Program-made: the position numbers and the translations under genes
The notes under the pieces: generated by a model
What the model saw: only the letters and a program-made list of their open reading frames with translations
Databases searched by the model: none
What the model was told of the DNA's origin: nothing
Part shown: positions 22,440 to 51,323 of the stretch, piece by piece
Layout: each line of letters begins with the position of its first letter
How positions within the stretch are numbered: the first letter of the stretch is position 1
DNA from: an uncultured Sphingomonadaceae bacterium
GTDB lineage: Bacteria; Pseudomonadota; Alphaproteobacteria; Sphingomonadales; Sphingomonadaceae
DNA length: 64,000 nucleotides
NCBI GenBank assembly: GCA_947501325.1
Contig: CANMVC010000004.1
Location: forward strand, 1 to 64,000
Direction: 5' to 3'

Positions 22440-22510
22440 GGAAGATGCGATAGCAGGGTGGATTCATGCTGTGTAGTGGGAAAGTGGGTTTGATCAGAGT
22501 GACATCCCAA

Positions 22511-31008: not shown

Positions 31009-31461
31009 CTAGCTGTTTTGCGGAAGAATCGCGACTGTTCTTAGGGCGTTCAATATCGAATCAATCGCAGATCGCGCTTCCAAATCGACAATTGCTCCGC
31101 CGACCGGACCATCAACGGCATCGATAAACTGCCAGACATTGTTCCGGTAGATGGCTGATTGCAGCGTTTCGACAACGAAAATCTTCATTGTTTCCTGTGG
31201 TTTAATAAAGTGCCATCCGCCGGATGACCAACCGGCTATCTGATTGTCCTTACCGCTCCATTCCGCCATTGCAGTGGGCGCGACGAGACAGCATTGCCCT
31301 GCGAGCGGCAATAATGACTGCGGATCAGCGGCAACAGCTTGCACCACAGGATGAATCAAAAAATCAAGTAATAAGAGGGCTTCATTATGAAATAGCTCTT
31401 TATGCGCCTGACCCGCCGCCAGTAAGGGTAATGCAAAACGCGTGGTTTCAAATATTGTCAT
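31009..31461 (-). CDS. DUF2793 phage/GTA tail-associated protein
   Basis: A 150-residue protein of the DUF2793 family. The signature RFALPLLAAGQAHKELFHNE lies at about 7-26, followed by LLDFLIHPVVQA and a WHFIKPQE segment. The family occurs at the end of phage and gene-transfer-agent structural operons in alphaproteobacteria. ATG 31461 follows AAAGGAAA. It is the last gene of the operon here. The role is not established; a tail-tip or fibre-associated role is inference. Confidence 0.8.
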   Translation of the reverse strand: MTIFETTRFALPLLAAGQAHKELFHNEALLLLDFLIHPVVQAVAADPQSLLPLAGQCCLVAPTAMAEWSGKDNQIAGWSSGGWHFIKPQETMKIFVVETLQSAIYRNNVWQFIDAVDGPVGGAIVDLEARSAIDSILNALRTVAILPQNS

Positions 31462-31503
31462 CTGCTTTCCTTTGAATAGTTAAATGAGAACCGGATGGTA
31501 CGG

Positions 31504-33504
31504 CTATATTTTGACGGCGAATGACAGTGGGTCGGAGATATTGTGCCGACCGACCTGCCGCACCTCGAGTGACAGCTTGGCCACACCCGATTGCCGGAAA
31601 TCCTCAATCTGGTCAGCCGATATGCTGATCGACGACTGTTCTTGTTCCAGCGGCGCGTCGGCCCAGTCGCTATTGCGCTTTTCATGGCCCGACAGGGTGG
31701 TGACGATATCGGTCGAAAAGCCCGGCGACACCGCCGCGCCCTGCCCGATGGCGAGCGGGAATTGCACGTCGTCAAACGCGTTCATATCATCCTCCTGTTC
31801 CTGAAAATAGGTGAACCCATCGCGCGCGACCTGTGGCAGCGCCCAGATGAAAATCTCCGGCGTGCCGCGCGCCCGAGCGGCCGCCACCGCATCGACCATA
31901 TTGGGCCAGATAAAACTGTCGTCAGCGGTCAGCACAAAACCGGAAAAATAATGCTGCCGCGCCATCGGATAGCCGAGCCGCTGCGTCGCGAGATCAATGC
32001 CGCGCTCGGTCTCCGACTGGTTGCCCGCGATGACCCAGTCATAATCTTCCAGCTGCAATATATCGAAGGCCGGGCTGGCCCAGCCGACGGGCAGGTTCGC
32101 GCGCTTGGCCTCTGGCGCGGCGGCATCCAATATCGTCGGCAGATAGGCGAGCAGCAGCGTCTCGACCGGCGCGCCAAGCGCCTCGTCCTTGACCGCTGCG
32201 ACGAGATCGGCGGTGGACTGGGCCAGCATCGCGCCCGCCTGATCCAGCATCGCTTTCTGCGCGGCCGTTTTCGGCCCGCGTATGTCCGCAATGCTGACCA
32301 GCGCATCGCCAAAGGCCGCCCTCGCCGCCGCATCATAGAGGCAGATCCGCCCGTCTTCCGGCATCACCCACCACCACGGTTCGCCGACCTGAAATTTGAT
32401 CGCCGCCCCGGCATCGCGCGCAATCGCGGTGAACGCCCGCGCCACCGCCTGGAGATAGCGCATCGCGGGCGCGCGCGCGGGAGACAAGAGAGCCGATGGC
32501 GGCACCCAGCCGGTCAGCGCCGGATCGCCATTTTCCGCGCGCTGTTTCCAATTGTTCCAGCAATGGGCATTGAACAGCTCATAGGACAGCGAGAAAATGA
32601 CGGTAAAATCCATCGCCTCCGCGCGGGTGACAAAGTCGCGGTGCCAGACCGCGCAGGGCTGATTGATCGCGGCGAATTCCTCGCCCGGCTGCGGCGCGGA
32701 CAGGCTGACATACAGCCCCGCCCCATTGGTCTCCAGCCGGAAATAATGGCTCATCCCGACATAATGGTTGATCGCCCCGCGATAGCCGAGCGCGCGGATG
32801 GCGCGGAGCAGGCGTGCGGGCGTCTGGTTGAAACTGTCATCATAGCCGGTCGCCATCGACAGGCCATTTTCCGGCACCATGATATCGCCGATTTCCAGCA
32901 CCGCGCCGCCGCCATCGGCCGCAATCGCGCTCATCTCGACCCAGCCGGTTTTGGGCCTCGCATAGCGTGTGCCTGCACCGTCATAGTCCGGCGGGATGAT
33001 CGAGATGAACATCCGGTCAATGTCATTCGGATGCACCGGATCCGCTTCGCCCGGCAGCACAAAGCCGCCGTCCAGCGCGGAAAATTCCAGATCGATCAGC
33101 GCATCGGTCGGCGTGCCGCTGGCATAGTTCCACAGCCGCACATACCAGGCTTTGGGCTGGCCGCTGGCATCGCGTCCTTCGATCGTGAGCGTCGGGCCAT
33201 TGACCCGATTGAGCGGCATGATCCCCTGCGAGCGCCAGCGGAATTTCAGCCGCAGCCGCGCATAATCGCGGTTCGTTTCATAAGCGAGCAGCGGGTGATC
33301 GAGCGTATCTTCGCTGTCCCAGATCAAACCCGCCAAATCATCGCTGTTGTAGAAAACCGCATCGACCCGCAGCGCGTCCGGTGCGGTCGTCACCACCGAC
33401 GCCATCATCGGACGCGGAAAATTGACGGTCCAGAAGCGCGGATCAAAGCGCTGGATAAAGCTGGTCTGTTGCGCGCTGCGTTCTTTCGCTAGCCAGAAAC
33501 CCAT
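31504..33504 (-). CDS. large tail protein, tail-sheath/TIM-barrel type with a truncated DUF2460 (gp12-like) segment
   Basis: A 666-residue protein directly after the tape measure gene, ATG 33504 after GGGAGGGG. The N-terminal 200 residues look like a beta domain (KAWYVRLWNYASGTPTD). The middle (about 220-565) has a TIM-barrel-like pattern (GYRGAINHYVGMSHYF, FQVGEPWWWVMPEDG). This fits the non-contractile tail sheath-like proteins of some phages and sphingomonad prophages. Near residue 580 the text FDDVQFPLAIGQGA, then TTLSGHEKRNSDWADA, is the start of the DUF2460 domain of GTA gp12. It then switches to a short strand-rich end (SLEVRQVGRHNISDP) that resembles the last domain of tail-fibre proteins. 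An internal deletion fused to a fibre end would explain this. Confidence 0.65.
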   Translation of the reverse strand: MGFWLAKERSAQQTSFIQRFDPRFWTVNFPRPMMASVVTTAPDALRVDAVFYNSDDLAGLIWDSEDTLDHPLLAYETNRDYARLRLKFRWRSQGIMPLNRVNGPTLTIEGRDASGQPKAWYVRLWNYASGTPTDALIDLEFSALDGGFVLPGEADPVHPNDIDRMFISIIPPDYDGAGTRYARPKTGWVEMSAIAADGGGAVLEIGDIMVPENGLSMATGYDDSFNQTPARLLRAIRALGYRGAINHYVGMSHYFRLETNGAGLYVSLSAPQPGEEFAAINQPCAVWHRDFVTRAEAMDFTVIFSLSYELFNAHCWNNWKQRAENGDPALTGWVPPSALLSPARAPAMRYLQAVARAFTAIARDAGAAIKFQVGEPWWWVMPEDGRICLYDAAARAAFGDALVSIADIRGPKTAAQKAMLDQAGAMLAQSTADLVAAVKDEALGAPVETLLLAYLPTILDAAAPEAKRANLPVGWASPAFDILQLEDYDWVIAGNQSETERGIDLATQRLGYPMARQHYFSGFVLTADDSFIWPNMVDAVAAARARGTPEIFIWALPQVARDGFTYFQEQEDDMNAFDDVQFPLAIGQGAAVSPGFSTDIVTTLSGHEKRNSDWADAPLEQEQSSISISADQIEDFRQSGVAKLSLEVRQVGRHNISDPLSFAVKI

Positions 33505-33507
33505 GGC

Positions 33508-34089
33508 TCACCCCTCCCGATAGGCCAGCGCATTGCGCACCGCGCGCGCGACTTGCCGACTGGAGCGGCGCATCTGATCAGGCGCGCTGCCCTGGCCATG
33601 GTCGGATATGTTGATGGTCAGGCGGATATTGGGCGCTGCCCTCGCAGGGCCTTGCGGTTCGATCCGGCCCGCTGCTGTCGGTACAAATAGCTCCGGCCCC
33701 TGCTCCCCCACCATATAAGCGCGGCCACCGGTGACCGGTCCACCCGTCGCGCGCCCCGGCAGACCCAGAGCCGCGCCCAAGAGCGACGTTCCAAGGCCCA
33801 GCAAGCCGCCACCCGAACCGCCACCGCCGAGCAGGCTGCCAATACCGCTATTCACTGCGGCGCTGGCAATATCATCCATCACCGACAGAGCGACGCCTTT
33901 CAGGTCCTGAAAATCCAGCGACCCGCGCCGGATCGCGCGGCTGAGGCCGGTTTCGAGTGCAGAACCGGCGCGTTCCATTCCGCTGGCGAGCGGGCCATCC
34001 AGCTGGCCTTTCATATCCGCTACATCCTTTGCAAATCCGGCGGTATCCGCCCGCACGGCGATGACCAGACGTTCGATTTCTTCATCCAT
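33508..34089 (-). CDS. GTA-type tail tape measure protein (gp11-like)
   Basis: A 193-residue short tape measure protein. Features: MDEEIERLVIAVRADTAGFA at the start, a helical stretch to about 90, a Gly-rich region (LLGGGGSGGGLLG), and the family end GRAYMVGEQGPELFVP and APNIRLTINI. It is typical of the compact RcGTA gp11 class. The ATG overlaps the chaperone gene's end by eight bases, and its TGA lies four bases before the large tail gene. In known particles it sets tail length. Confidence 0.82.
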   Translation of the reverse strand: MDEEIERLVIAVRADTAGFAKDVADMKGQLDGPLASGMERAGSALETGLSRAIRRGSLDFQDLKGVALSVMDDIASAAVNSGIGSLLGGGGSGGGLLGLGTSLLGAALGLPGRATGGPVTGGRAYMVGEQGPELFVPTAAGRIEPQGPARAAPNIRLTINISDHGQGSAPDQMRRSSRQVARAVRNALAYREG

Positions 34090-34447
34090 GATGGAGGGTG
34101 TCTTTCAGTTGTTCGAGTTGGGTTTTGGTGAGGGGTTGGGTGCTTTGATGGACCGGACCAGCACCGGACAAAGCCTTCAGGATGGCGGCCAATTCGGCGG
34201 GTGTGGCGTTCCAATATTGGTCCGGGGTCCAGCCGATGGTTGCGGGTATCAGGCCAGCGAGATGGGCTGCAGAGGTGCGGAAGCCACTGTGCTCCTGCGC
34301 AGGCAGGAGCCCATCTCGTGCCGTTGCATCTGACGGCGCCAGAGAGGGAGTGCTCTTACCAGGAGACTGGCGCTCACCAATGCCGTTGCTGATCACCGAT
34401 GGATCAGGAGATGGATCCCTGCCTTCGCAGGGATACGGGATTGTCAT
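34082..34447 (-). CDS. phage tail assembly chaperone (rcc01693/DUF2376 type) with repeat-coded N-terminus
   Basis: The family core is residues about 62-121: LAGLIPATIGWTPDQYWNAT, PAELAAIL and a LTKTQLEQLKDTL end. Upstream, ATG 34447 overlaps the gp10 stop (TGATG), the normal arrangement. Between them a family A palindromic repeat (34289-34436) is read in frame as about 50 extra residues rich in Pro, Ser and Gly. No ATG or GTG lies between the repeat and the conserved core, so translation must begin inside or before the repeat. Function as a tail chaperone with gp10 is known from the family; whether this version still works is doubtful. Confidence 0.65.
   Translation of the reverse strand: MTIPYPCEGRDPSPDPSVISNGIGERQSPGKSTPSLAPSDATARDGLLPAQEHSGFRTSAAHLAGLIPATIGWTPDQYWNATPAELAAILKALSGAGPVHQSTQPLTKTQLEQLKDTLHHG
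34289..34436. repeat. palindromic repeat family A, copy 1 (inside a tail gene)
   Basis: The ends GTGCTCCTGCGCAGGCAGGA and ATCCCTGCCTTCGCAGGGAT are inverted repeats; the inner ends CCATCTC and GAGATGG also pair with the opposite arm. This copy lies wholly inside the open frame of the tail chaperone gene. Confidence 0.85.
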
Positions 34448-34682
34448 CACCGTCCCTGCAATATCTGTTTGAGCAGGATTTTGAGAACAGGCGTCACACC
34501 CGCCAGCCCGAGCGCCATCATCGCTTCGCCAAAATCCTCTCGCGTCAGACGATCAGATCGAACAGCGACCCCAGTTCCTCTTCCGCCGCGACCAAGGCCG
34601 CAAAACTGGGGCGCAAGATCAGCCGCTGGTCACCCAGCACCAGCTCCGCCTCACCGCGCAGCGCGTTTGCCCGCTCAGACAT
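34447..34682 (-). pseudogene. broken GTA gp10-type tail chaperone
   Basis: ATG 34682 overlaps the upstream tail gene's stop (ATGTCTGA), as in intact clusters. It opens MSERANALRGEAELVLGDQR, continues FAALVAAEEELGSLFDLI, and stops at TGA 34547-34545 after 45 residues. The conserved end of the same protein is in another frame just downstream: LTREDFGEAMMALGLAGVTP then LLKQILQGR, ending at TGA 34449-34447. The whole span is 236 bases, not a multiple of three, and the middle segment normally found between the two parts (about 25-30 residues by my recollection of the family) is absent. It is therefore a deletion plus frameshift. Confidence 0.7.
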
Positions 34683-35082
34683 TGATCACCGCGCCCGAGC
34701 TTTCGAGGCTCAACGTATAACTGCGCTCGCCATTATAATCGCCGCTATAGTCCAGCCGCGTGACCAGAAAATCACCGCGCATCCGGTCACCGCCTTCAAA
34801 GCTGAGTTCATAAGCGTCAATCACCCCGCCCAGCGCGTGGTTCTTGATACGCAGTTCCGCATCCGATCCGGTAAATACGCCGGCGCCCGATACCGATACC
34901 GACCGCACACCTGCGCCCGACAATAGCTCGCGCCAGCCGCCGCTGTCTTTATTGGTGATCGCGACGGGTTCGCCATTGACCGACAATTGCGTCGTGCGCA
35001 GACCGGCGATGGTGGAATAGCTCACCGGGTCCTGCCCGTCGCCAATTTTAAGGAGAAAGGCACTGCCTTTTTCTGCTGCCAT
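34675..35082 (-). CDS. phage/GTA major tail protein (gp9-like)
   Basis: A 135-residue tail-tube protein: MAAEKGSAFLLKIGDG, TTQLSVNGEPVAITNKDSGG (about 29-48) and a beta-rich C-terminus (YELSFEGGDRMRGDFLVTRL). This is the RcGTA gp9/TP901-1 major tail protein family. ATG 35082 follows AAGGAACC. It overlaps the broken gp10 start. A family A repeat lies between it and the upstream DUF3168 gene, so it has its own ribosome site. Confidence 0.87.
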   Translation of the reverse strand: MAAEKGSAFLLKIGDGQDPVSYSTIAGLRTTQLSVNGEPVAITNKDSGGWRELLSGAGVRSVSVSGAGVFTGSDAELRIKNHALGGVIDAYELSFEGGDRMRGDFLVTRLDYSGDYNGERSYTLSLESSGAVINV

Positions 35083-35111
35083 AGTTGGTTCCTTTTTTGA
35101 TAAATAAATTT

Positions 35112-35259
35112 GTGTCCCTGCGCAGGCAGGGATCCATCTCCTGTCGTTGCGTTTGACCGCAACAGATTGGGAGAGCGTCGCATGCGAGACCTTTATCCCT
35201 CCATTCAGTTGCCAATTGAGCAGAGGTCAGGAGATGGGCCCCTGCCTGCGCAGGGGCAC
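35112..35259. repeat. palindromic repeat family A, copy 2
   Basis: The arms GTGTCCCTGCGCAGGCAGGG and CCCTGCCTGCGCAGGGGCAC enclose a loop of about 100 bases, with CATCTCCTG and CAGGAGATGG as inner complementary ends. It lies between two structural genes of the GTA-like operon. Confidence 0.88.
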
Positions 35260-35283
35260 TAGGATATAGTTTTGCTCAGCGTT

Positions 35284-35304
35284 GCTCCGCACTTGATGCG
35301 GAGC
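35284..35304. repeat. small palindrome family E, copy 1
   Basis: GCTCCGCACTTGATGCGGAGC, a short hairpin also seen at 38516-38540 and, split into two halves, at 62422-62498. Confidence 0.6.
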
Positions 35305-35312
35305 ACGAACCT

Positions 35313-35720
35313 CTAGATCTCGGATATTTTCAAAACCCGGGCGCGATATTCAACGAGACCGCTCCAAGGGCTCACCGCATTTCGTAAAATCCGGCTCCGG
35401 CGAAAATCGAACGTGACGATCTGCCAACCGTCGGGGTCTGACAGACCGCTCTCCAGCGCCGCTTCCACCAGCGCCATCACCCGGTGCAATCGCGCCGCGC
35501 TATCGCCATCGTCATGCACGGTCAGCGCCAGGCTAAGCTCCCGGCCCGTGCCGCCTTTAAAGCTCCAGTCGAGCGATGCGCCCGTTGCCAAGGCGATATA
35601 GGGAAAGCGGGTACGCGGTGGCGGGCCGTCATGGATTCCGTTAATTGTATCCAGCAACGGCTGGTGCGCGTTCATCGCCGCAACCAGTTCCCGCTGCACC
35701 GCCTCAAGAGCGCTGGTCAT
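35313..35720 (-). CDS. DUF3168 tail completion protein (GTA gp8-like)
   Basis: A 135-residue protein of the DUF3168 family. Typical features: LDTINGIHDGPPPRTRFPYI (about 22-41), LALTVHDDGDSAARLHRVM and a C-terminal SPWSGLVEYRARVLK strand. In HK97-like and GTA particles it is the tail terminator/completion protein. Its ATG overlaps the upstream small gene by four bases. Confidence 0.88.
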   Translation of the reverse strand: MTSALEAVQRELVAAMNAHQPLLDTINGIHDGPPPRTRFPYIALATGASLDWSFKGGTGRELSLALTVHDDGDSAARLHRVMALVEAALESGLSDPDGWQIVTFDFRRSRILRNAVSPWSGLVEYRARVLKISEI

Positions 35721-35935
35721 CGAACACCCCGCATCAAAAAGGCGACATCGCGCAGGCTGTTATTCTCAACCATTTCCGCGCCAATGCCGCCACCGGAAAC
35801 GACAACCCCATCACTGGACTCCTCGATCGAAAACCGATCAGGCAGTTGCTCGTCCAGCGCCACTTTGACCTCTGCTCTGGTCTTCTCGACCGTCGCTTCT
35901 GCCAGGCTTTCCGCCTTGTTTTTCAGCTTCTCCAT
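35717..35935 (-). CDS. small unknown protein of the GTA-like operon
   Basis: A 72-residue protein: a helical, charged first half (LKNKAESLAEATVEKTRAEV) and a GVVVSGGGIGAEM segment in the second half. The start overlaps the gp7-like stop by one base (TAATG) and the stop overlaps the DUF3168 ATG by four, so it is a genuine operon member. A gene of this size in this slot is consistent with a connector accessory, but I do not recognise a family. Confidence 0.62.
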   Translation of the reverse strand: MEKLKNKAESLAEATVEKTRAEVKVALDEQLPDRFSIEESSDGVVVSGGGIGAEMVENNSLRDVAFLMRGVR

Positions 35936-36279
35936 TACCGTTTCTCCTCGGCTTCCAACATGGTTTTCGGAATGAAGCGATGGTCGGCGGACACGGTGCG
36001 GACGACCATGTTCCGATCACCCCATTTCAGGTGATCACCGGGACGGATCGCTTCCGTCTGACGCATCGTGAATCGCCATCGCGGCAAGGCCGAACGGCTC
36101 TCGGCGAGCGCTTCGCTGCCCGAGCCAAGCGGCTCGGCAGCCGCCCAGAAATCACCGACGATTTCGCTCTGGTCGGTCGCTGATCCGATGGCATCACGCT
36201 GCGCGGACCGGCGTGCAATATGGATGCGTTCGCGCAGCAGGCCGCTAAATTCCCCGCCTCCAAAATTTGAACCGCTCAT
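35935..36279 (-). CDS. head-tail adaptor (GTA gp7-like, head closure)
   Basis: About 114 residues from ATG 36279, which overlaps the upstream gp6-like stop (ATGA); ten further in-frame codons upstream are unlikely to be used. It contains GEFSGLLRERIHIARRSAQR, FWAAAEPL and the end RFTMRQTEAIRPGDHLKWGD, the pattern of the SPP1 gp16/HK97 gp10-like head-closure family. It joins the connector to the tail. Confidence 0.82.
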   Translation of the reverse strand: MSGSNFGGGEFSGLLRERIHIARRSAQRDAIGSATDQSEIVGDFWAAAEPLGSGSEALAESRSALPRWRFTMRQTEAIRPGDHLKWGDRNMVVRTVSADHRFIPKTMLEAEEKR

Positions 36280-36821
36280 GCGAGCCTCATCCGGCGATGC
36301 GGCCGCCATAAGGCTGTCACCGCGCTCGGCGGTGCGGCAACATCCGCGCCATCGCGATGGGAGTAGAGATAGCCTGCCAAGCGCACCACGCCTTGCCGCA
36401 AGGTTATTGGCACGGCGCCCCAGTCGGCGGCCAGCCCGGCTTCATAAGTGACAGCGATACGCTGGATATTATGGTAGCTATACAGCTTCACCCAGCCGAT
36501 ACCGTCGCCGTCGATATCCATCGCATAGGCGCTCGGGTCGAGCGGCGTCATATTGCCATCGATGGCCACGGCCTCGACCCGCGTAATCGCTTGTACCGGC
36601 CGTCTTTTAAGTTTCTGCCATTCTGCGCGAACCGGCAAGCGATCGCATTCCGGTCGGGTAATCAGCATCTGGCCGGTGAAATTCTCGCAAAGGTGCGCGG
36701 CGCTGCGGAGAAATTGCTCCAGCGCGTCATCATCTTCGCCATGGGCAAGGCGGAGAAATTCTTTGACCTCTTCGATCAGCTCTGCCGGGATCGCGGGCAG
36801 GCCTATAGGGGGGAAGCTCAC
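36276..36821 (-). CDS. head-tail connector (GTA gp6-like)
   Basis: A 181-residue protein from GTG 36821, nine bases after AAAGGACG. It begins with IPAELIEEVKEFLRLAHGED, typical of gp6-like connectors, then AAHLCENFTGQM and a central W-x-L-x-RRPV segment (EWQKLKRRPVQAI) before an AVTYEAGLA-type strand and a C-terminal helix LRQGVVRLAGYLYSHRD. It forms the ring under the portal. It overlaps the adaptor gene by four bases. Confidence 0.85.
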   Translation of the reverse strand: MSFPPIGLPAIPAELIEEVKEFLRLAHGEDDDALEQFLRSAAHLCENFTGQMLITRPECDRLPVRAEWQKLKRRPVQAITRVEAVAIDGNMTPLDPSAYAMDIDGDGIGWVKLYSYHNIQRIAVTYEAGLAADWGAVPITLRQGVVRLAGYLYSHRDGADVAAPPSAVTALWRPHRRMRLA

Positions 36822-36904
36822 GGTTCGGGCGTCCTTTCAGGTTGGGGTTTTTGGGGGGTGTGGGATTTGGGGGTTGAGGTTGTACACAATGGTGGCCGTT
36901 CCTT

Positions 36905-37080
36905 CATCCTCTCCCCTTGAGGGAGAGGACAGTGGAGCTTGCGCTGACTGGCGCTAGCGGAACTTGGAGAGGGGGGAGCGGTTATCGCTGACGATGGTGG
37001 TTGCCGCCTACCCCTCTCTAAGACTTGGCTTCGCAGCGAGCTGCCAAGCCAAGTCTTTTCTCTCCCTCAAGGGGAGAGAA
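36905..37080. repeat. palindromic repeat family B, copy 2
   Basis: The arms TCCTCTCCCCTTGAGGGAGA and TCTCCCTCAAGGGGAGAGAA bound about 175 bases. Inner words TTGGAGAGG, CTACCCCTCTC and CCAAGCCAAGTC are shared with the copies at 22511 and 51324. It splits the capsid gene from the connector genes. Confidence 0.87.
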
Positions 37081-37120
37081 AAAAGGTAGTGCGCCTATCC
37101 TACCCTCAAGACCATCATCC

Positions 37121-37241
37121 GAGCGCAGCGAGGCAAGGCCGACCGGCCGCCCGAGCTTATGCGAGGAAAGCCAAGGCGACGGATGTCGCCGCCCGGCGCT
37201 TGAGGGAATAAACAAAAACCCGCGCCCGGCGCTTGAGGTTC
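37121..37241. repeat. repeat family C, copy 1 with partial tandem end
   Basis: GAGCGCAGCGAGGCAAGGCC, then a CCAAGGCGACGGATGTCGCC hairpin and GCCCGGCGCTTGAGG (to 37205); the last part, GCGCCCGGCGCTTGAGG, is repeated at 37221-37237. The same words occur at 50591-50679. It follows a family B copy, so two repeat types have landed in this 450-base gap. Confidence 0.75.
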
Positions 37242-37273
37242 CAATAAAAACTCTCCCCCCTCCCCCACAACAA

Positions 37274-38452
37274 TCAACTCGCGCTAAACTGCATCAGCTT
37301 GATCGCTTCGCTGTTCATCACCTGACCGCCGACGCGCTTGGTTGCATAGAAATGCACAAACGGCTTGTTGGTGAACGGATCACGCAAGATGCTGGTCGCG
37401 CTGCGTTCGGCGATGAGATAACCGGCGCGGAAATTGCCGAAGGCGATGGACAGGCTGTCCGCCGCCACATCCGGCATATCCTCGGCCTCGACCACCGGAT
37501 AGCCGAGCAGCATGTCCGGCTGACCTGATGCCATTGACGCCTGCCACAAAAACGCGCCATCGGCGGTCTTGAACTTGCGGATCTGGGCCAGCGTTGCGCT
37601 GTTCATCACAAAGCTTGCGCCCTGCCGATAGGCGGGTTTCAGCGTGTGGACCAGATCGACCAGCGCATCTTCCCCATCCGCTCCCGCGAAACCGCCTGCT
37701 GCACCGGACGGCACATATTGCAGCGCCCCGAAAGCGCGCAAATCATCCGGCTCGTCGGTCACAGGGGCGTTCAGAAAGCCGCGCGGCTGGTTGATGCCCG
37801 AACCGCCGACAAAGGCCGCGCCCTCGGCCTGCGCAAATTCCCGCGCAATCTCATCGGCCAACCAGGCTTCGACATCAAAGGCCGCATCATCGAGCATCGC
37901 CTGGGACGCCGCCGGATTGGCATAAAGCTCTCCGGTCGGCGGCGCGATTTCGTTAAAATTGGGCGTTTCGGTTTCTGGCCGCCCCGCCGTTTCGCTGACC
38001 CAGCCCGATGGCGTGCCGCCATTGGTGACCAGCTTGCGATAGCCCGCGCTGCCGGTCTGCACGACGGTGGCGATGGACCGGATCGGCGAGACGTCTTTCA
38101 GCGTCCGCCCGATCAGCGCGTCAATTTCCTGCGGCACCGCAAAACCGCCTTCGGGGCCGGATGCTCCGGAAAAACTTTTCAGCTCGACACCTGCATGATC
38201 GCCCCGGCGGAGATATTTTGCGACGAAGTCTTTTGATGCAGAGGACGCCAATAAGCCTTTCGCGCCATCTAAAGCAGGCCGGGCGGATGCACGGGAGATA
38301 TCCGCCATCTGGCTCTTCAAACCATCAACATCGGTGCGCAATGCGGCAATTGCCTTGCCGTGTTGTTCGGTTTCTTCGGTCTGCAAAACCGCGTCAAAGG
38401 AAGCCTCCAGCGGGTCGGCTTTCGTTTCGAGGGGTGTAGTTGAAATGTCCAT
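37274..38452 (-). CDS. HK97-family major capsid protein (GTA gp5-like)
   Basis: A 392-residue capsid protein. The first 100 residues are a charged helical scaffold-like region (EETEQHGKAIAALRTDVDGL) expected to be removed by the prohead protease. Then the HK97 fold: FSGASGPEGGFAVPQEIDAL, SPIRSIATVVQT, SGWVSETAGRPETE, GELYANPAASQAMLDD, PDMLLGYPVVEAEDMP and the end FVHFYATKRVGGQVMN. Full length and apparently intact. ATG 38452 follows AAAGGAAC. Confidence 0.93.
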   Translation of the reverse strand: MDISTTPLETKADPLEASFDAVLQTEETEQHGKAIAALRTDVDGLKSQMADISRASARPALDGAKGLLASSASKDFVAKYLRRGDHAGVELKSFSGASGPEGGFAVPQEIDALIGRTLKDVSPIRSIATVVQTGSAGYRKLVTNGGTPSGWVSETAGRPETETPNFNEIAPPTGELYANPAASQAMLDDAAFDVEAWLADEIAREFAQAEGAAFVGGSGINQPRGFLNAPVTDEPDDLRAFGALQYVPSGAAGGFAGADGEDALVDLVHTLKPAYRQGASFVMNSATLAQIRKFKTADGAFLWQASMASGQPDMLLGYPVVEAEDMPDVAADSLSIAFGNFRAGYLIAERSATSILRDPFTNKPFVHFYATKRVGGQVMNSEAIKLMQFSAS

Positions 38453-38515
38453 GATGTTCCTTTCTTATGGATAATGAAAAACCGCCCGGTCAGGGGCGGC
38501 CAAAAGCTGGTGTTG

Positions 38516-38540
38516 GTGCTCCTCACTTGATGCGGAGCAC
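38516..38540. repeat. small palindrome family E, copy 2
   Basis: GTGCTCCTCACTTGATGCGGAGCAC between the protease stop and the capsid start, nearly identical in its right half to 35284-35304. Confidence 0.55.
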
Positions 38541-38547
38541 GGTCGCG

Positions 38548-38946
38548 TCAGATGATATGGTGCACACGCGCCAAGGGCTGCATTGGGTGCGTAACCAACG
38601 ATATTTCCGCCACATCCAGATCTATCAACGCGCGTGGCTTTTGGCCCGCCGCCTGCCGCACGCGATAGCCGAAACTGAGGCCCTTTACCGCACCGTCTTT
38701 CAGCATAGCCGACGCCTCTCGCCCTGCTCTTGTCACGGCTGAAAGACTACCGATCACCCGCAGGCCGCGCTGATCTTCGCGGGCATAGCTGATGCTGCCA
38801 ATGCGATGCTCGGCGCTATGTTGCCAAAGCAAGGGCAGCGATTGCCCCTCGGCGAGCGTCCCAAAAGCACCGGGTCGAATAATGTCACCGCCCTTGTCGA
38901 TGCGGTTAAAAATCGCGGCATAGCCAGCGAAGCGAATATCACTCAC
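38548..38946 (-). CDS. HK97-family prohead protease (GTA gp4-like)
   Basis: A 132-residue U35-type protease: FAGYAAIFNRIDKGGDIIRP at the start, the catalytic His in LLWQHSAEHRIG (about 38-49) and Ser in VKGLSFGYRV (about 88-97), then VAEISLVTHPMQPLA at the end. It cleaves the capsid delta domain during head maturation. It is shorter than many homologues but keeps both catalytic segments. Its ATG overlaps the preceding small gene by four bases. Confidence 0.9.
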   Translation of the reverse strand: MSDIRFAGYAAIFNRIDKGGDIIRPGAFGTLAEGQSLPLLWQHSAEHRIGSISYAREDQRGLRVIGSLSAVTRAGREASAMLKDGAVKGLSFGYRVRQAAGQKPRALIDLDVAEISLVTHPMQPLARVHHII

Positions 38947-39251
38947 GTCACCAAATTCCCGAACCCGAACCGCATCGCAATCCCGATGAGCAGCAGCGCC
39001 AGCGCCCCGCGCACAATCCAGGTGATCGCGGCTTTCCAGGCACTCGCCTTGGCATCGCGCCAGGCGCGCAGCAGCTCGCGCAGTTCGTCGAGATCATCCT
39101 GCGCCTTATGATCGGCAAGACCCAGCCGATCGAGCACACGCTCCGCACCGCTGTCGGTTGCCTCCTCGACTATCGCGCGGAGCGTGACCAGATCAGCCCC
39201 ATCGCCTTCCGCCTGCGCCACCAGGCGGGCGAGCATTTCTTCGTTTTTCAT
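38943..39251 (-). CDS. small membrane protein between portal and protease (DUF6127-like)
   Basis: A 102-residue protein: a charged helical N-terminus (LARLVAQAEGDGADLVTLRA), DDLDELRELLRAWRDAKASA, and one C-terminal transmembrane helix (GALALLLIGIAMRFGFG). It resembles DUF6127 proteins, which I recall from the same slot in sphingomonad GTA-like clusters. ATG 39251 follows AAGGATGAG. Its role is unknown. Confidence 0.65.
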   Translation of the reverse strand: MKNEEMLARLVAQAEGDGADLVTLRAIVEEATDSGAERVLDRLGLADHKAQDDLDELRELLRAWRDAKASAWKAAITWIVRGALALLLIGIAMRFGFGNLVT

Positions 39252-39277
39252 AATCTCATCCTTAAAAGCAAATTGCT

Positions 39278-39363
39278 GTGCTCCTGCGCAGGCAGGAGCC
39301 TATCTCCTGCCGTTTCGCGTAGATTCAGCAGCAGGAGATGGACCCCAGCCTTCGCCGGGGCAC
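39278..39363. repeat. palindromic repeat family A, copy 3 (short form)
   Basis: GTGCTCCTGCGCAGGCAGGA and CCAGCCTTCGCCGGGGCAC form the outer arms, CTATCTCCTG and CAGGAGATGG the inner ends. Only about 86 bases long, against about 150 for other copies. It lies between portal and the small membrane gene. Confidence 0.85.
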
Positions 39364-39373
39364 GGTCTTCTGA

Positions 39374-40510
39374 TCAAATCCCCAACATCGCCCGCTTCTC
39401 TTCCGGCGACAGAAAATCCGCTGCGCTCACTTGGCTCCACAGCCTCTCCCGATCCTCCGACAGTGCCGGAATTTGATCGCGGTCGATCGTCAGCTTCGCC
39501 TCCGGCCACCACACCCCCAGCGCGCCCGACAGGCCGTCCAAAATCTTACCGGCCAGCGGCAAGATCGTCAGCCGCCAGAGCGCCCGATTAGCCTCACGGT
39601 AATTGGCATAGCTATTGTCCCCGGGCAGCCCGAGCAGCATCGGCGGTACGCCAAAAGCCAGCGCAATTTCCCGCGCGGCGGCCGCTTTCAGCGCAACGAA
39701 ATCCATGTCGGCCGGGGTCATGCTCATCGACTGCCATCTGAGGCCGCCTTCAAGCAGCATCGGACGACCGGCATTGCCGGAGCCTGCAAAACTCGCCTCC
39801 ATCTCGGCCTTGAGCCGGTCAAACTGGTCCGCCGACAAGACCGACCCATCCGGCCCCGGATCAAACACCAAAGCACCCGAAGGCCGCGCGGCATTGTCGA
39901 GCAACGCCTTGTTCCACTGTGCCGCCGCATTATGCACAGCCACCGCCCTGGCCGCGGCGCCGAGACAGCCGAGACCATAATGGTCGTCGGTCGGGTGAAA
40001 GGCCTTGATATGGATGATCGCCGGACGGCCCATCGCATCCTGCGCGGCAAAGCGGGTCTGATGCTCGCCAGCGCGATAGGCATAGGCGACGGGCCAGCCC
40101 TTTTCATCCGGCTCGATCGTGATGCGGTCGGGCCGCAGCGCGAACAGTTCGACGGGCTGGTCGTCGGCGCCGCACATCACCTGCACATAGGCATTGCCAT
40201 GCAACAACAGATGCGCGGCGAGCGTTTCGAGCAAGGACTGGCCCGCACTGGTGGCGTTGACCAAGGTTGCAATGCCGTCGTCCATCGGCACGAGCGGCGC
40301 ACCGCCGACCCCCTCGGCCACAATGCGCACCGCTCGCTGGGCAATGGCGTTATTGATGTAAGCGTCGCGCACCTGTCCTTCGTAAGAATAGGGCGCTTTG
40401 CCGGTGAACGAAGCACCGCCGTAGGTGCCGATATAGCTACGCCCCAAGGGCGTCCGTGATTGTCCACCCCCGCCCTTGAAGGCGAGGGAAATATTTTCCC
40501 AGAATTTCAT
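39374..40510 (-). CDS. HK97-family portal protein (GTA gp3-like)
   Basis: A 378-residue portal protein: YSYEGQVRDAYINNAIAQRA (about 41-60), LLLHGNAYVQVM, LFALRPDRITIEPDEKGWPV, HIKAFHPTDDHYGLG, FDRLKAEMEASFAG and ALAFGVPPMLLGLPGDNSYA with NYREANRALWR, the standard order for this family. It forms the dodecameric DNA entry ring and binds the terminase. ATG 40510 follows AAGGAAATAAA. It appears intact. Confidence 0.93.
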   Translation of the reverse strand: MKFWENISLAFKGGGGQSRTPLGRSYIGTYGGASFTGKAPYSYEGQVRDAYINNAIAQRAVRIVAEGVGGAPLVPMDDGIATLVNATSAGQSLLETLAAHLLLHGNAYVQVMCGADDQPVELFALRPDRITIEPDEKGWPVAYAYRAGEHQTRFAAQDAMGRPAIIHIKAFHPTDDHYGLGCLGAAARAVAVHNAAAQWNKALLDNAARPSGALVFDPGPDGSVLSADQFDRLKAEMEASFAGSGNAGRPMLLEGGLRWQSMSMTPADMDFVALKAAAAREIALAFGVPPMLLGLPGDNSYANYREANRALWRLTILPLAGKILDGLSGALGVWWPEAKLTIDRDQIPALSEDRERLWSQVSAADFLSPEEKRAMLGI

Positions 40511-40526
40511 TTTATTTCCTTAACCT

Positions 40527-40673
40527 GTGCCCCTGCGGAGGCAGGGGTCCATCTCTTGCTCAGCAGCCGATGCGCTGCAGCCAAAGAGTGCTCGGGGCCC
40601 AAATCTTTTCCTGCCAAAACTGCTCCGATGAGATTATCCGATCGGAGCTGGACCCCTGCCTGCGCAGGGGTAC
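40527..40673. repeat. palindromic repeat family A, copy 4
   Basis: The arms GTGCCCCTGCGGAGGCAGGG and CCCTGCCTGCGCAGGGGTAC lie between the large terminase stop and the portal start. Confidence 0.86.
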
Positions 40674-40690
40674 AAAGCTCTATATCCTTC

Positions 40691-42127
40691 CTAAACCCGC
40701 ACCCTTGGCTCGCGCTTCCGCCGCAACATCAATTCCGTCAGCGCATAGACCAGCGCATCGGCGCGATCCGGGGACCGTCCCGGCCCTTCATAGCCGCCGC
40801 CGATGAGCAATCCGCAGAGTTCATCCTCCAGCCGCGGGAAAGCGCCCGCATGATAAACCCGCCCCGCTTCATACAGCGCCGCCACCGGTTCAGCCCGCGC
40901 AACCTTGCCGCGCGACGCGTGGACCAATCGCACCGGCAAAGATATATCCGCCGCCTGCAGGACCGATTTGACCATCGCTCCGCCCTGATTGGCCTCGGCA
41001 ATCACCCGGTCGGCGCCCCACTTGCGCGCCGCATCAGCCACCGCCCGCGCCCATTTTTCGGGGCTGGCTTTCTCAACGCTGCGATCGGCGAGGATCACGG
41101 CTTTGCAGTCAGGGCGCAATCCGGCGACGATGATCCCGCACGCGTCTCCGCTGCTCGAGGCGGGCGGGTCGACGCCGATGACTATTCTGGTGATAGTCTC
41201 CTTCGGGTTAGCGCGAGCCAATGGATGTAGTTCGACAGGCTCACCACGAACAGCAACAGATGACCCTTGCGTGTATTCCGTTCGTCCTGAGCCTGTCGAA
41301 GGACCGCTGTCGGTTGCCCCCAACGCGACCCGGCACCCCTCAATCATCGCCCGCGTCCATAGCGCGCCTTCCAGCTCCTCGATCAGTTCGCCGTCCAGTT
41401 CCTGCCGCCCCAATCGCGTACCGCCATAATCGGCCTTCATCACATTGATAAACGCAGACGGCAGGTTCATCACATTATCCTTTGTACTGCCGCGGGTTGT
41501 CACGACGCCGCTATCCTTCAACAACGCCCGCACCAGCGCCACCGGTCTTGGCGTCGTTGTCGCGGCAATTTTAGGCGCGCGGCCGAGACGCAATCCCATT
41601 TTCAGATTGTCCCATGCCGCCAGCGCCTGACCGCCATTATTCGCCCATTTGGCAATCTCGTCGCACCAGCTATGGCTATGCTGCGGTCCGCGCAGTCCTT
41701 CCGGTTCCGCGGCCGAATAGAGATAGGCCTCTGCCCCATTATTCCAGCGCAGGCGCTTCAGGGATGGTTCCCAGACAGGCCGGTTTTTCGGCGGCGCGAT
41801 CGACAGCAGGCCGCTCTCGCCCTCGACCATCACCATCCGCGTCTCCGCAAAATTCGCGCCGACCAGAGCAAAGCGCGCGCTGCCGTCGGCTTCGGCAATA
41901 AAGCGCACCCATTCCGCACCGGCGCGGGTCTTGCCAAATCCGCGACCGGCCATGATCATCCAGACGGTCCAGTCGCCAGCTGGCGCCAATTGTTCATCGC
42001 GCGCCCAATGGTGCCAGCTGGCTTCATATTCGAGACGATATTCCGGACCCAATGCGTCCAGAAAAAATTTTCGCTCTTCCGCCGTTAACTTCGCTAGATC
42101 GCGTGCCTTTGTGATATCATGCGCCAT
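40691..42127 (-). CDS. large terminase (GTA gp2-like) with a repeat-coded internal insertion
   Basis: About 478 residues from ATG 42127, overlapping the upstream gene by eleven bases. Walker A is AGRGFGKTRAGAEW (about 61-74), Walker B-like SWCDEIAKW (about 154-162), the coupling motif ATTTPRP (about 190-196), and the nuclease domain begins GVDPPAS (about 319-325). Between CRVALGAT and the nuclease domain lie about 38 unusual residues, including STGSGRTEYTQGSS and VAVRGEPVELHP. These are coded by a family D palindrome (41229-41304) read in frame. The insertion sits in the linker between ATPase and nuclease, where it may be tolerated. The protein packs DNA into heads. Confidence 0.9.
   Translation of the reverse strand: MAHDITKARDLAKLTAEERKFFLDALGPEYRLEYEASWHHWARDEQLAPAGDWTVWMIMAGRGFGKTRAGAEWVRFIAEADGSARFALVGANFAETRMVMVEGESGLLSIAPPKNRPVWEPSLKRLRWNNGAEAYLYSAAEPEGLRGPQHSHSWCDEIAKWANNGGQALAAWDNLKMGLRLGRAPKIAATTTPRPVALVRALLKDSGVVTTRGSTKDNVMNLPSAFINVMKADYGGTRLGRQELDGELIEELEGALWTRAMIEGCRVALGATDSGPSTGSGRTEYTQGSSVAVRGEPVELHPLARANPKETITRIVIGVDPPASSSGDACGIIVAGLRPDCKAVILADRSVEKASPEKWARAVADAARKWGADRVIAEANQGGAMVKSVLQAADISLPVRLVHASRGKVARAEPVAALYEAGRVYHAGAFPRLEDELCGLLIGGGYEGPGRSPDRADALVYALTELMLRRKREPRVRV
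41229..41304. repeat. palindromic repeat family D, copy 1 (inside terL)
   Basis: GTTCGACAGGCTCACCACGA and TTCGTCCTGAGCCTGTCGAA are inverted arms separated by about 35 bases. The same arms occur at 55522-55592 between genes. Here the element lies inside the large terminase frame and keeps it open. Confidence 0.88.
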
Positions 42128-42680
42128 CAATCACGCGATCCCTTTCCCCATCAGGGTCACCGTTTGAACCGTTGCGCTGTCGTCGCTTCTCTGCCTGAAA
42201 GGCGCGCAAGCGGACGTTTATCTTCTTGAGCTTCTCATCCAGCGTATCGCGCACCGGCTCTTCTTCCACGGTCAGTTCCGCCTGCGCCGCGCGCACCAGC
42301 GCCACGGTTTCCTTGTGCATCCGCAGCAGGGTCAGCGCCGTTTTATGGTCATAGTCGCGCACCGTCTCGACATGCTTGCCGTGATAGAAAATCTTGCGCT
42401 CCACGCCCTCTCGCGCCCGCTCCAGCATTTCCATCTCAAGCAGCGCATAGCCCTCGGCCAGCGCCTTCATCCAGGCGACTTCAAAATCCGGATCTCTATT
42501 CTTCCATCCGTAAAGCGTCGAGCTGGCGATACCGGCAACGGTCATGGATTTCTGGACACTCGATGTCATGGCCAGATGCTCCAGAAAAGTCGCACGCCGG
42601 GCGGCATCATAATCCGCGCGTGGATGGGGTTTGGGATTACATTGGGTATCGGTGTGCATGTCTTCGTTTGTTTCAGCCAT
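42117..42680 (-). CDS. small-terminase-like HTH protein heading the GTA-like operon
   Basis: A 187-residue protein from ATG 42680 after GGAGGAT. A helix-turn-helix (VQKSMTVAGIASSTLYGWKN, about 43-62) is followed by YHGKHVETVRDYDHKTALTL and a charged, helical C-terminus (TLDEKLKKINVRLRAFQAEK). First position before terL, HTH and a helical tail fit a small terminase (gp1-type). Its HTH plus YHG-x-x-V layout is shared with the frameshifted gene at 113-951. It overlaps terL by eleven bases. Confidence 0.75.
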   Translation of the reverse strand: MAETNEDMHTDTQCNPKPHPRADYDAARRATFLEHLAMTSSVQKSMTVAGIASSTLYGWKNRDPDFEVAWMKALAEGYALLEMEMLERAREGVERKIFYHGKHVETVRDYDHKTALTLLRMHKETVALVRAAQAELTVEEEPVRDTLDEKLKKINVRLRAFQAEKRRQRNGSNGDPDGERDRVIDGA

Positions 42681-42814
42681 ATCTATCCTCCAGCCCGGAT
42701 CGCTGAGGACCGCAGGCGTTAAAAAGGCCTGCGCGCTGAAACAGAAGCCACCCCGCCGGGATCGCCTTGTCCCAGAGCCGCTCGGCCCGAATCACAATTT
42801 CTCGATGTTCCTGA

Positions 42815-42843
42815 TATGTACCCAAACAGCGTGACAATGTCAA
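42815..42843 (-). promoter_or_regulatory. near-consensus promoter in front of the GTA-like operon
   Basis: On the minus strand TTGACA (42843-42838), a 17-base spacer and TACATA (42820-42815). An 11-base palindrome TGACATTGTCA overlaps the -35. A GTTC-N7-GTAC element, one base from the alphaproteobacterial LexA pattern GTTC-N7-GTTC, spans 42807-42821 (plus-strand reading) at the -10. The leader to ATG 42680 would be about 125 bases. Confidence 0.55.
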
Positions 42844-45523: not shown

Positions 45524-45671
45524 GTGCCCCTGAGCAGGCAGGGACCCATCTCCTATCATTACGGCCCTAAGTGGGTGTGGGGGATGCGTTGCGCTTTAGC
45601 CATCCTGTGCCTCTTGTCGCTCGCATATTTACGGGAATATGGGAGATGGCCCCCTGCCTGCGCAGGGGCAC
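45524..45671. repeat. palindromic repeat family A, copy 5
   Basis: The arms GTGCCCCTGAGCAGGCAGGG and CCCTGCCTGCGCAGGGGCAC, with CCATCTCCTA and GGGAGATGG inside, end seven bases from the stop of the patatin gene. Confidence 0.87.
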
Positions 45672-45677
45672 GGGCGT

Positions 45678-47465
45678 TTACAGATGTTTCAGCCCGGCGC
45701 TGTCGATCACCTGGCTGGCAATATATTCGGATGCCATTTCGGCCAGTTCGCGGCCCAAATGCCAGTCGAGTATCTGCATATCCGGGATGATCGGCGGATT
45801 GACCAGAATATCGTCCTCGCCGAGCATTTCCTTGGACGCCATCCGGCTGGCGACAACCATGGAGCGCGACATGATCTCGACAATCGAGGGGAATTCGGCC
45901 TCGCGTTTTTTGCGCAGCAGCACGTCTTTCATCAGGGTCCAACGCCCCCGAATATCGTCATATTCTACATCAGTGCGCCAGATTTCATCAGGATCGCCCA
46001 GCGACACGACAATATTGGGGCCGGTTTTCAGATCATGCATGACCTTTACCGGTACATTGTCGAGCACCCCGCCATCGACGAGGATATTGCCATCGCTGTC
46101 GATAAAGGGCGGCAATATGGTCGGCAAAGAACCCGACGCGCGGACGCATTCCCACAGCGGCCCGCGCCGGTGGACGTGCAGGCCGTTGGTCGACAAATTG
46201 GTCGAAACGCCAAAGAAGTTAATCGGCTGGTCGGCAATGTCCTTGGTCCCGTAGCGGCTGCGCAATTCGGCATCGAACACGGTCGGATCAAGCAGCGAAT
46301 AGAGCGGCAAGGTCAGCCGCCGCATCGCCTTTGCCTTGATGAACATTGCCTCCATCTGGTCGAGTGTTTCCTCGACCGTCATGCCGCGCGCAATCGCGCC
46401 GCCCATCGCGGCCCCTGCGCTGGCGCCGCCGATGAAGTCGATCGGGACATCCGCCTCTCTCAGCGCCTGAATGACCCCGAGATGCGCGCAGCCCAAAGCG
46501 CCGCCGCCAGCGAGCACCAAGCCCACCGCGCGGCCTGTCAGGAAGCGTGCAACCTTGGCAAAGTCGGCATCGCTATCGAGCGCAACATGGTGGTGCAGCT
46601 TGGGTTCGCGCGGGTCGATCCACGCCGCGCTTTTGGTAATCGTCTTGTCGGCCTTTTCACGGACCAGCAGCAAGGTCCGCTGCGGCGCGGCAATCCACCG
46701 CATCGCGCTTTGTTCCATCGCATTGGCTTCGGGTTCGGCGCGGCCAGGACGCCCCACCATGACCAGCGCATCGGCGTTGCGGCAGACCTGGTTGCTCCAC
46801 TCTTCCGACCCGCTGCCGTCAATCAGGACATAGGCGCCCTTGGCTTCCTGTTCCGCCAGCCATGCCTGATAAGCGGCGCTGTCCGACGCCTCGTTTGTGC
46901 CCTGGTCCACCGCGATTACCGGCGTGTCTGCTTTCACCACCGCTTCAAACGCCTCTGCCAACCGCGCCAGAAAGCCGTCCGGCAACTGGCTGGTCCCGGC
47001 GGGCAGCAAGGCAATCACCCGCGGTGTGCTGCTCCCCACCGAACCGGCACGGCTGGTGGCGACCACCAACCGTTCGGACACCAGTTTGAGCATGGCCTGT
47101 GTCAGTTCCGGATGCGTCCGTGCGATATCGTCGAATGCGCTGCGCGAGACTTTGAGAACCACAGAATCGCGGGTTGCGATCACATCGGCTGTGCGTTTTC
47201 CGCCAGCAAAAAAGGCGAGCTCGCCCACGGCTTCCCCCGCTTCGATATGGGCGACAATATGGACCTTGTTGACCACCACCCGGAACCGGCCGGATTCGAC
47301 GAAATAGAGCGCATCCGCGTCATCGCCCTGCAAAACCAGAATCTCGCCGCCTGACACGGATTTCAGGGTAGAAACGGCCTCAAGCGCCTCAAGCGCGGCA
47401 GCCGACACACCATCAAAGAGCGCATGACGGGCCAGATTCGGGCCGGAAACCGGTACTATATTCAT
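45678..47465 (-). CDS. cyclic-nucleotide-binding-domain patatin-like phospholipase (NTE type)
   Basis: About 595 residues from ATG 47465, preceded by GGGGATGG. The first about 130 residues are a cNMP-binding-type domain (GEILVLQGDDADALYFVESG, EAVGELAFFAGGKRTA). The C-terminal patatin domain has the oxyanion loop LVLAGGGALGCAHLGVIQAL, the nucleophile GGASAGA (about 350) and the catalytic Asp in ILVDGGVLDNVPV (about 467). Expected to be a regulated serine lipid hydrolase. Whether the cNMP domain still binds a nucleotide is not certain. Confidence 0.9.
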   Translation of the reverse strand: MNIVPVSGPNLARHALFDGVSAAALEALEAVSTLKSVSGGEILVLQGDDADALYFVESGRFRVVVNKVHIVAHIEAGEAVGELAFFAGGKRTADVIATRDSVVLKVSRSAFDDIARTHPELTQAMLKLVSERLVVATSRAGSVGSSTPRVIALLPAGTSQLPDGFLARLAEAFEAVVKADTPVIAVDQGTNEASDSAAYQAWLAEQEAKGAYVLIDGSGSEEWSNQVCRNADALVMVGRPGRAEPEANAMEQSAMRWIAAPQRTLLLVREKADKTITKSAAWIDPREPKLHHHVALDSDADFAKVARFLTGRAVGLVLAGGGALGCAHLGVIQALREADVPIDFIGGASAGAAMGGAIARGMTVEETLDQMEAMFIKAKAMRRLTLPLYSLLDPTVFDAELRSRYGTKDIADQPINFFGVSTNLSTNGLHVHRRGPLWECVRASGSLPTILPPFIDSDGNILVDGGVLDNVPVKVMHDLKTGPNIVVSLGDPDEIWRTDVEYDDIRGRWTLMKDVLLRKKREAEFPSIVEIMSRSMVVASRMASKEMLGEDDILVNPPIIPDMQILDWHLGRELAEMASEYIASQVIDSAGLKHL

Positions 47466-50376: not shown

Positions 50377-50383
50377 GTATAGT

Positions 50384-50535: not shown

Positions 50536-50590
50536 AGCGCAGTTTATCGGAATCCGACCATGCCCGAAATTTCTAACTTAGCCACTATTC

Positions 50591-51271: not shown

Positions 51272-51323
51272 GCTGTGTTGCGGGAGAATATCGCCTTCCC
51301 GCGATTGAGAGCTGAACCACTTG

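Follow-up and report, generated by a model that had tools for sequence, protein, structure and literature searches.

An RcGTA-like gene cluster of a sphingomonad, very likely inactivated recently by two deletions in its tail half

The window analyzed comprises 64,000 nucleotides of contig CANMVC010000004.1 from an uncultured Sphingomonadaceae bacterium (GCA_947501325.1). Gene transfer agents (GTAs) are virus-like particles, encoded by bacteria, that transfer DNA; the head-tail gene order of RcGTA, the GTA of Rhodobacter capsulatus, served as the reference for comparison. On the minus strand, the window contains terS, terL, portal, a DUF6127 gene, protease, capsid, gp6, gp7, a 72-aa ORF, gp8, gp9, a broken gp10, TAC_6/gp10.1, gp11, a 666-aa ORF, and a DUF2793 gene, in this order. 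Family matches confirmed the original prediction that gene order and families follow RcGTA from the small terminase to the tape measure.

The g1-like small terminase gene terS (42117..42680, minus strand, as are all features below) matched the PHROG terminase small subunit (E 1.7e-20) and occupies the same position in relatives. It is followed by terL (large terminase, 479 aa, 40691..42130; Terminase_6N and Terminase_6C), the portal gene (39374..40510; Phage_portal, E 3.2e-73), a DUF6127 gene in the interval between portal and protease (38943..39251; family match), the head maturation protease (38548..38946; Peptidase_S78), the HK97-type major capsid (37274..38452; Phage_capsid, E 1.7e-89), the gp6 head-tail connector (36276..36821; TIGR02215, E 4.3e-23), and the gp7 head completion protein (35935..36309; Phage_HCP, E 8.2e-09). 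The adjoining 72-aa ORF (35717..35935) is without family match and is kept in relatives, with 60% identity in G031, the closest relative by cluster genes. The head genes had been described as intact. Their reading frames are indeed all open. In terL, however, the linker alignment shows a net in-frame repeat insert of 37 codons (111 bp) between the ATPase and nuclease domains (41186..41323; 138 bp compared with 27 bp in G031).

In the tail half, the gp8 tail terminator (gp17-like, 35313..35720; PF11367, E 4.7e-13) and the gp9 major tail tube (34675..35082; Phage_tail_2, E 1.3e-38) precede the gp10 tail chaperone (34450..34679). As predicted, gp10 is broken: it is 79 bp shorter than in G031 and frameshifted into two pieces (34548-34679 and 34450-34563). 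The 5' end of the gp10.1/TAC_6 ORF (34082..34450; Phage_TAC_6 at 71-116) carries a dispersed repeat, and a similar repeat was also seen in G006. The short tape measure gp11 (33508..34089; PHROG tape-measure matches) is 94% identical in G031. The cluster ends with the 666-aa ORF (31504..33504) and the DUF2793 gene (31009..31461; PF10983, E 1.1e-20).

Full homologous clusters with the same downstream flank were found at the same locus in G031, G006, G011, and other close relatives; that of G031 has gp10, gp12, gp13, gp14, gp15, and DUF2793. Comparison with the separate gp12 and gp15 genes of the relatives identified the 666-aa protein as a deletion chimera. Its residues 1-625 and 615-666 match two separate genes, and it consists of gp12 residues 1 to ~625 joined in frame to the C-terminal ~52 residues of gp15, which in relatives is a gene of its own (730-738 aa) located ~4 kb downstream. 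The gp12 part holds an NCTSP_N domain (E 1.6e-98), an NCTSP TIM barrel (E 2.3e-164), and 55 of 205 DUF2460 positions, which places it in the non-contractile tail sheath (N4-type NCTSP) family. At the deletion junction (31645..31661), 17 bp were aligned by BLAST to both ends, and 3,829 bp are absent compared with G031; the gap runs from within the distal-tail domain of gp12 up to the final ~52 residues of gp15. Among 31 genomes mapped, this layout was seen in this genome only. The DUF2793 gene likewise sits after intact gp15 genes in relatives and is thus the ordinary last gene of full clusters.

These alignments contradict the view that the tail end had been rewritten, with the 666-aa and DUF2793 proteins taking the place of the missing genes: ~3.8 kb are simply missing. 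With the 666-aa protein shown to be such a chimera, a new tail end was rejected. Of the two readings offered originally, a decaying GTA is supported. The other, a system that forms heads but delivers by a different end, finds no support: the supposed tail protein is of chimeric origin, the layout occurs in a single genome among the 31 mapped, and close relatives carry full homologous clusters at this locus.

The predicted lack of gp13, gp14, and full-length gp12 and gp15 was borne out for the window and for the rest of the assembly. A genome-wide search of the 3.58-Mb, 99.98%-complete assembly found no other copy of gp10 or of gp12-gp15 at any locus. The gp15 query was validated in relatives, where this tool recovered the gene. 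A local tblastn provided the positive control for the gp13 and gp14 query sequences; the genome search itself had no control of its own for these two. In a scan of genome_contigs, 12 loci were found, and those 85-90% identical carry the label 'uncultured Sphingomonadaceae bacterium'.

As the deletion is known from one draft assembly of 18 contigs, the possibility was considered that it arose through misassembly or during laboratory culture, with a full cluster in the natural population. The remaining genes show no decay, and a 33-mer spanning the junction had no match in viral_contigs (weak evidence, as this locus may not be represented in that collection); both would fit such an origin. However, the contig is 170 kb long and the junction sits 31 kb into it, gp10 carries a separate 79-bp lesion, and comparable deletions occur elsewhere, including in the single-contig genome G023. 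We consider this explanation unlikely, though it is the strongest of the rivals.

Large internal cluster deletions were observed in 7 of 32 genomes of the genus, namely this one and G005, G012, G014, G017, G022, and G023. Their endpoints mostly differ, and the deleted clusters are scattered over a one-gene tree. The frame is kept in two of the seven main joins (G000 and G017), close to the one in three that would arise with no selection on frame; selection for an in-frame fusion is therefore not supported.

The leftover genes of four genomes were tested for relaxed selection; for G005, G012, and G014 the comparison covered 102-127 codons. In the cluster of the window, relaxed selection was not detected in the remaining genes by branch dN/dS compared with the intact sister (0.124 vs 0.123; bootstrap difference -0.029 to 0.032). 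A different set of genes and taxa gave a similar picture, with 0.102 (0.080-0.124) vs 0.111. Since the remaining genes are without relaxed selection, the cluster was probably inactivated recently, and judging from these sequences they may look intact for want of time to decay. A retained function of the remaining genes would also give low dN/dS. Furthermore, both lesions lie in the tail half while the head is open, a distribution that fits two random events and a retained head function alike.

Such a retained function is the core of a second rival, a domesticated system in which selected head genes package DNA without tail delivery, or in which the chimera and the DUF2793 protein form a new tail tip. 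Head genes that are open and constrained, and a chimera that is in frame, are what it would predict. Yet the cluster lacks gp13 and gp14 and has a broken gp10; selection on what is left of it equals that in the intact sister and is explained by recency; the layout is missing from the 30 other genomes mapped; and the frame is kept at about the rate of chance over the seven joins. We regard domestication as very improbable.

In the interpretation that we consider very likely, a sphingomonad inherited an RcGTA-like head-tail cluster vertically, and two recent deletions inactivated it. The larger (~3.8 kb) would have taken out the 3' end of gp12, the whole of the hub gene gp13 and the peptidase gene gp14, and all but a short remnant of gp15, which encodes the baseplate 'megatron'; that the gp12 and gp15 stumps share a frame would be accidental. 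The smaller (79 bp) would have frameshifted the gp10 tail chaperone. The cell would then presumably have lost the capacity to assemble particles able to transfer DNA. If still expressed, the operon would be expected to yield at most tailless heads, because deletion of g14, the peptidase gene, was by itself sufficient to give empty heads without tails in RcGTA, as an excerpt of PMC7296036 describes; this also speaks against a domesticated head system.

Phage-type genes would equally be found in an ordinary prophage remnant unrelated to GTAs. Against such an origin, an OmpA gene lies directly downstream of the cluster in 27 of the 32 genus genomes, all those in which the flank could be assessed, no integrase was found among the family matches of the cluster ORFs, and RcGTA proteins are among the PDB structures related to gp15 and to the distal tail domain. 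This leaves the prophage reading with a negligible probability, and the locus appears as a fixed, vertically shared chromosomal site with RcGTA-like head-tail genes in RcGTA order.

The relatives make an open question testable, namely what maintains GTAs even though their producers die. Since a single genus holds both full and freshly broken clusters at one locus, losses can be dated and it can be checked whether broken lineages radiate. Tentatively, GTA loss in the genus may be frequent, repeatedly arising, and short-lived, with non-producers at scattered tips and the best-measured cases too young for decay; we hold this to be possible, at somewhat less than even chances. If true, it is the pattern expected where non-producers win locally but their lineages die out, and selection above the single cell would keep the GTA. 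This genus-wide pattern and the tail-tip architecture of the order are, in our opinion, more interesting than the broken locus itself.

Compared with RcGTA, gp12 of this order has ~570 extra N-terminal residues (NCTSP_N and TIM barrel), and its gp15 (~735 aa) is without GTA_TIM, unlike RcGTA gp15. The Dit domain of gp12 resembles RcGTA 6tba_6B (E 2.5e-44), and both ends of gp15 match RcGTA 6tba_8A. No match to GTA_TIM (PF13547) was found in gp12 or gp15 of G031 or across 147 genomes of the order. A transfer of the TIM barrel from gp15 to gp12 was not supported by hhalign (probability 1.5%, 10 columns), a comparison of two profiles that are both shallow (Neff ~2.4 and ~2.7), built from 40 NCTSP TIM sequences (28 kept by the program) and 13 GTA_TIM sequences from 13 of 22 genomes found. 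Tail proteins of phage N4 (9lc0, 9yf4, 9yf5) share NCTSP_N and the TIM barrel with gp12 (9lc0_M, E 2.1e-43; 9lc0_I, E 2.3e-16); the N4 sheath protein is known as gp65. In N4 these domains belong to other proteins (chains of 417 and 1,382 aa), whereas here they are fused to the distal tail protein. The predicted structure of a relative's full gp12, of low confidence (mean pLDDT 56.9), had N4 at Foldseek rank 1, and R4C was also matched. The real structural difference, the fusion of N4-type sheath domains to the distal-tail proteins of GTAs, is order-wide and not specific to this genome.

The full clusters of the relatives keep the RcGTA gene order from terminase to gp15, whereas the copy in the window is broken. 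An excerpt of PMC10883770 gives 14 of 17 head-tail genes as the criterion for a complete cluster; by this standard the window copy is incomplete, with g10 broken, g12 cut, g13 and g14 absent, and g15 reduced to ~52 residues. On its sequence, the locus would be an inactivated GTA and not a working one. An element from a 2017 study, cited as predicted RcGTA-like in an excerpt of PMC6821227, is presumably the same cluster. Pseudogenized or lost alphaproteobacterial GTAs are known and have been proposed to represent cheater lineages (PMC10883770). The present case shares with these a cluster that is defective in one lineage and kept by its relatives; beyond them, lesion endpoints are resolved inside one genus, and relaxed selection is testable in four genomes.

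The GTA-like operon predicted at 31009–42843, with an intact head part, is encoded on the minus strand; terS comes first (42680) and DUF2793 last (31009). Family searches identified terS, terL, portal, protease S78, HK97 capsid, gp6, gp7, gp8, tail tube, TAC_6, gp11, and DUF2793. The 666-aa open reading frame at 31504–33504 was found to carry NCTSP_N at residues 17–206, an NCTSP TIM barrel at residues 211–564, and DUF2460, the gp12 domain, at residues 578–632, the latter over the first 55 of its 205 positions only.

The 666-aa protein was searched against the window's genome plus those of 59 relatives, 60 in total, and found matches in 42. In the closest genomes, residues 1 to ~620–634 match one open frame of ~780–820 aa, and residues ~607–628 to 666 match the end of another one of 730–738 aa, located ~4 kb downstream. 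In the alignment with G031, the closest relative by cluster genes, the cluster and its downstream flank are collinear, and 3,829 bp present in G031 are missing from the window at 31645–31661 (size computed from alignment coordinates). The G031 piece compared starts at terS and the upstream flank lies outside it; in genome G009, the window's gene at 45721–47354 was found upstream of the cluster. In G031, the missing stretch comprises the final three quarters of gp12's DUF2460 domain, gp13 (PF09931 and PF09356), a 145-aa protein assigned as the gp14 peptidase by position and a Cys motif (a longer ORF scanned at this position gave no Pfam match), and nearly all of gp15 (Rcc01698_C, Phage-tail_3). 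Since residues 1 to ~625 and the C-terminal end match two genes of the relatives and 3,829 bp are missing, the 666-aa protein is a chimera in which gp12 is fused to the final part of gp15, and the tail end of the cluster is the result of a deletion rather than a rewrite. The original prediction had regarded this protein and DUF2793 as substitutes for the lost tail genes; neither assignment was upheld, as DUF2793 comes after gp15 in the full clusters of relatives, too.

The DNA of gp11 and gp12 at 31645–34282 is 91% identical to G031, compared to 78–87% in the other aligned cluster stretches. Similarly, dS is 0.29–0.40 for gp11/gp12 and 0.47–1.5 for the other cluster genes. Possibly, this segment was replaced by homologous recombination before the deletion.

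The gp10 gene is broken, as predicted: it is 79 bp shorter than in G031, with the frame shifted after ~44 codons, and its two pieces in the cluster are the sole gp10 matches in the window's genome. Within this assembly (3,581,291 bases, 18 contigs, 99.98% complete), DUF2460 was detected in the chimera only and gp15 only as the chimera's end, while gp13 and gp14 had no match on any of the 18 contigs. The same tool and gp15 query retrieved a full-length gene from 22 of the 32 genomes of the genus; the gp13/gp14 genome search had no positive control of its own, and the same sequences match both genes in mapped relatives (local tblastn). Of the genes predicted to be lacking (a full gp12, gp13, gp14, and gp15), the start of gp12 and the end of gp15 survive in the chimera.

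In RcGTA, the hub (g13) and the megatron (g15) are described as the baseplate core, and deletion of the g14 peptidase as resulting in empty heads and no tails (PMC7296036). With gp10 and gp12–gp15 damaged or gone, we infer that no transfer-competent particle is to be expected from the window cluster. The gene content of the full clusters of relatives does not by itself imply that they produce particles.

Large internal deletions of the cluster were found in 7 of the 32 genomes of the genus. Besides the window's genome (G000), these are G017 (portal to gp15), G023 (capsid to gp15), G014 (terL to gp14, then another in gp15), G005 and G012 (terL to DUF2793, endpoints nearly identical), and G022 (portal to DUF2793). 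Full-length gp15 is present in 22 genomes, one of them (G016) with an internal stop; in two genomes (G001, G004) the cluster is cut by contig ends, and one (G008, 82% complete) gave no match. Deleted clusters occur in 6 of the 24 genomes with ≥90% completeness and ≤5% contamination. The main join is in frame in two of the seven deleted genomes, close to the one third expected by chance. Smaller lesions were also seen, namely a split gp12 in G018 and stops in G010 gp12 and G016 gp15, some of which may be sequencing errors. In another genus (G035), locus L051 retains terL, portal, DUF6127, and gp12–gp15, with no match from capsid to gp11; ~270 bp separate gp12 from the end of a protease match holding two stops. 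This is probably another internal deletion.

The flanking OmpA gene gave a tree of 28 rows, 27 from the genus and G035, without G002 and G008 (not fetched) and G001, G004, and G018 (contigs ending before or inside OmpA). The seven deleted genomes require seven changes, five of which are forced by well-supported branches. Shuffled labels needed 6.4 changes on average, and as all 500 of 500 shuffles needed as few as observed, the deleted genomes show no clustering on this tree. It pairs G000 with G019, yet by cluster genes G031 is closest. The tree represents one gene and may itself reflect recombination: G010, with a full gene set, forms a group with G012 that leaves out G005, and the similar deletions in G005 and G012 would thus represent either two events or one event and later exchange.

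Distance-based branch estimates (2,976 codons) gave a dN/dS of 0.124 for the window and 0.123 for G031 (bootstrap difference −0.029 to 0.032), and a second set (2,702 codons, 19 taxa) gave 0.102 (0.080–0.124) for the window versus 0.111. Had the genes evolved freely since the loss, this could apply to only ~4% of the branch, given the upper bound of the first estimate. No relaxation was observed for G017, G022, and G023 either (0.093, 0.101, and 0.110), the comparison genomes of G022 and G023 being distant and their branches long (dS 0.90 and 0.69). Codon numbers were too small in G005, G012, and G014; G005 gave a higher point estimate, 0.308 (0.101–1.714). By itself, dN/dS is compatible with a recent loss and with remaining genes that are still selected; given the absence of gp13 and gp14, a recent loss is the simpler explanation.

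GTA pseudogenization and loss in several alphaproteobacterial lineages are already in print, where broken clusters are proposed to be possibly recently emerged cheater lineages (PMC10883770), and another paper describes a varying degree of conservation of the cluster in about half of Rhizobiales, Sphingomonadales, and Caulobacterales members (PMC9836097). A literature search, mostly at title and abstract level, returned no report of the present set of deletions.

An in-frame repeat insert lies at 41186–41323 in the terL linker between the ATPase and nuclease domains; 12 of 24 aligned terL sequences carry inserts at this site, of at least three repeat types by eye, and no stop was seen in the linker. 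The insert resembles the insertion of palindromic elements into genes as in Rickettsia. Paired inverted repeats of ~30–35 bp, ~20–90 bp apart, occupy several spacers, both within the cluster and beyond it (34287–34436, 35111–35259, 39276–39363, 40525–40674, 45524–45671, and 50383–50538), and represent a dispersed REP/MITE-like element. A longer repeat in the capsid–gp6 spacer (36906–37083) is 83% identical to 51321–51509 and ~72% to 22510–22667.

The full form of gp12, whose window counterpart is 31504–33504, is found at L032 and loci such as L063. A 783-aa gp12 query matched 81 of the 147 genomes searched in the order. Most of these matches span almost the entire query, and some are split, contain a stop, or cover one part only. 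Partial matches to this query were found in 430 phage records, only one of which covers ≥80%. GTA_TIM was found in none of the 147 genomes of the order and in 22 of 193 from a class-wide draw; four of the 193 carry the NCTSP TIM barrel, none of them among these 22. A profile comparison, with shallow profiles, gave no recognizable sequence homology between the two barrels. Second, diverged NCTSP matches (36–38% identity over the TIM part) at G015:C13, G046:C14, and G057:C6 are adjoined by separate DUF2460 matches; they look like neighboring unfused genes, perhaps of prophages or a second GTA-like locus.

Whereas RcGTA gp12 is a chain of 210 aa, sphingomonad gp12 is longer, with an N4-like N-terminal part: the RcGTA distal tail protein (6tba_6B, E 2.5e-44) is matched by its C-terminal ~205 residues, and phage N4 tail proteins (9lc0_M, 9lc0_I) by stretches within the first ~570. 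Sphingomonad gp15 (~735 aa) matches only residues 25–203 and 1024–1252 of the RcGTA megatron (1,304 aa). Given the N4-type non-contractile-sheath N-terminal and TIM-barrel domains that gp12 carries across the order, the shorter gp15, and the lack of GTA_TIM in the order, the sphingomonad GTA tip appears to be built differently from that of RcGTA, a feature that characterizes the order rather than the window.
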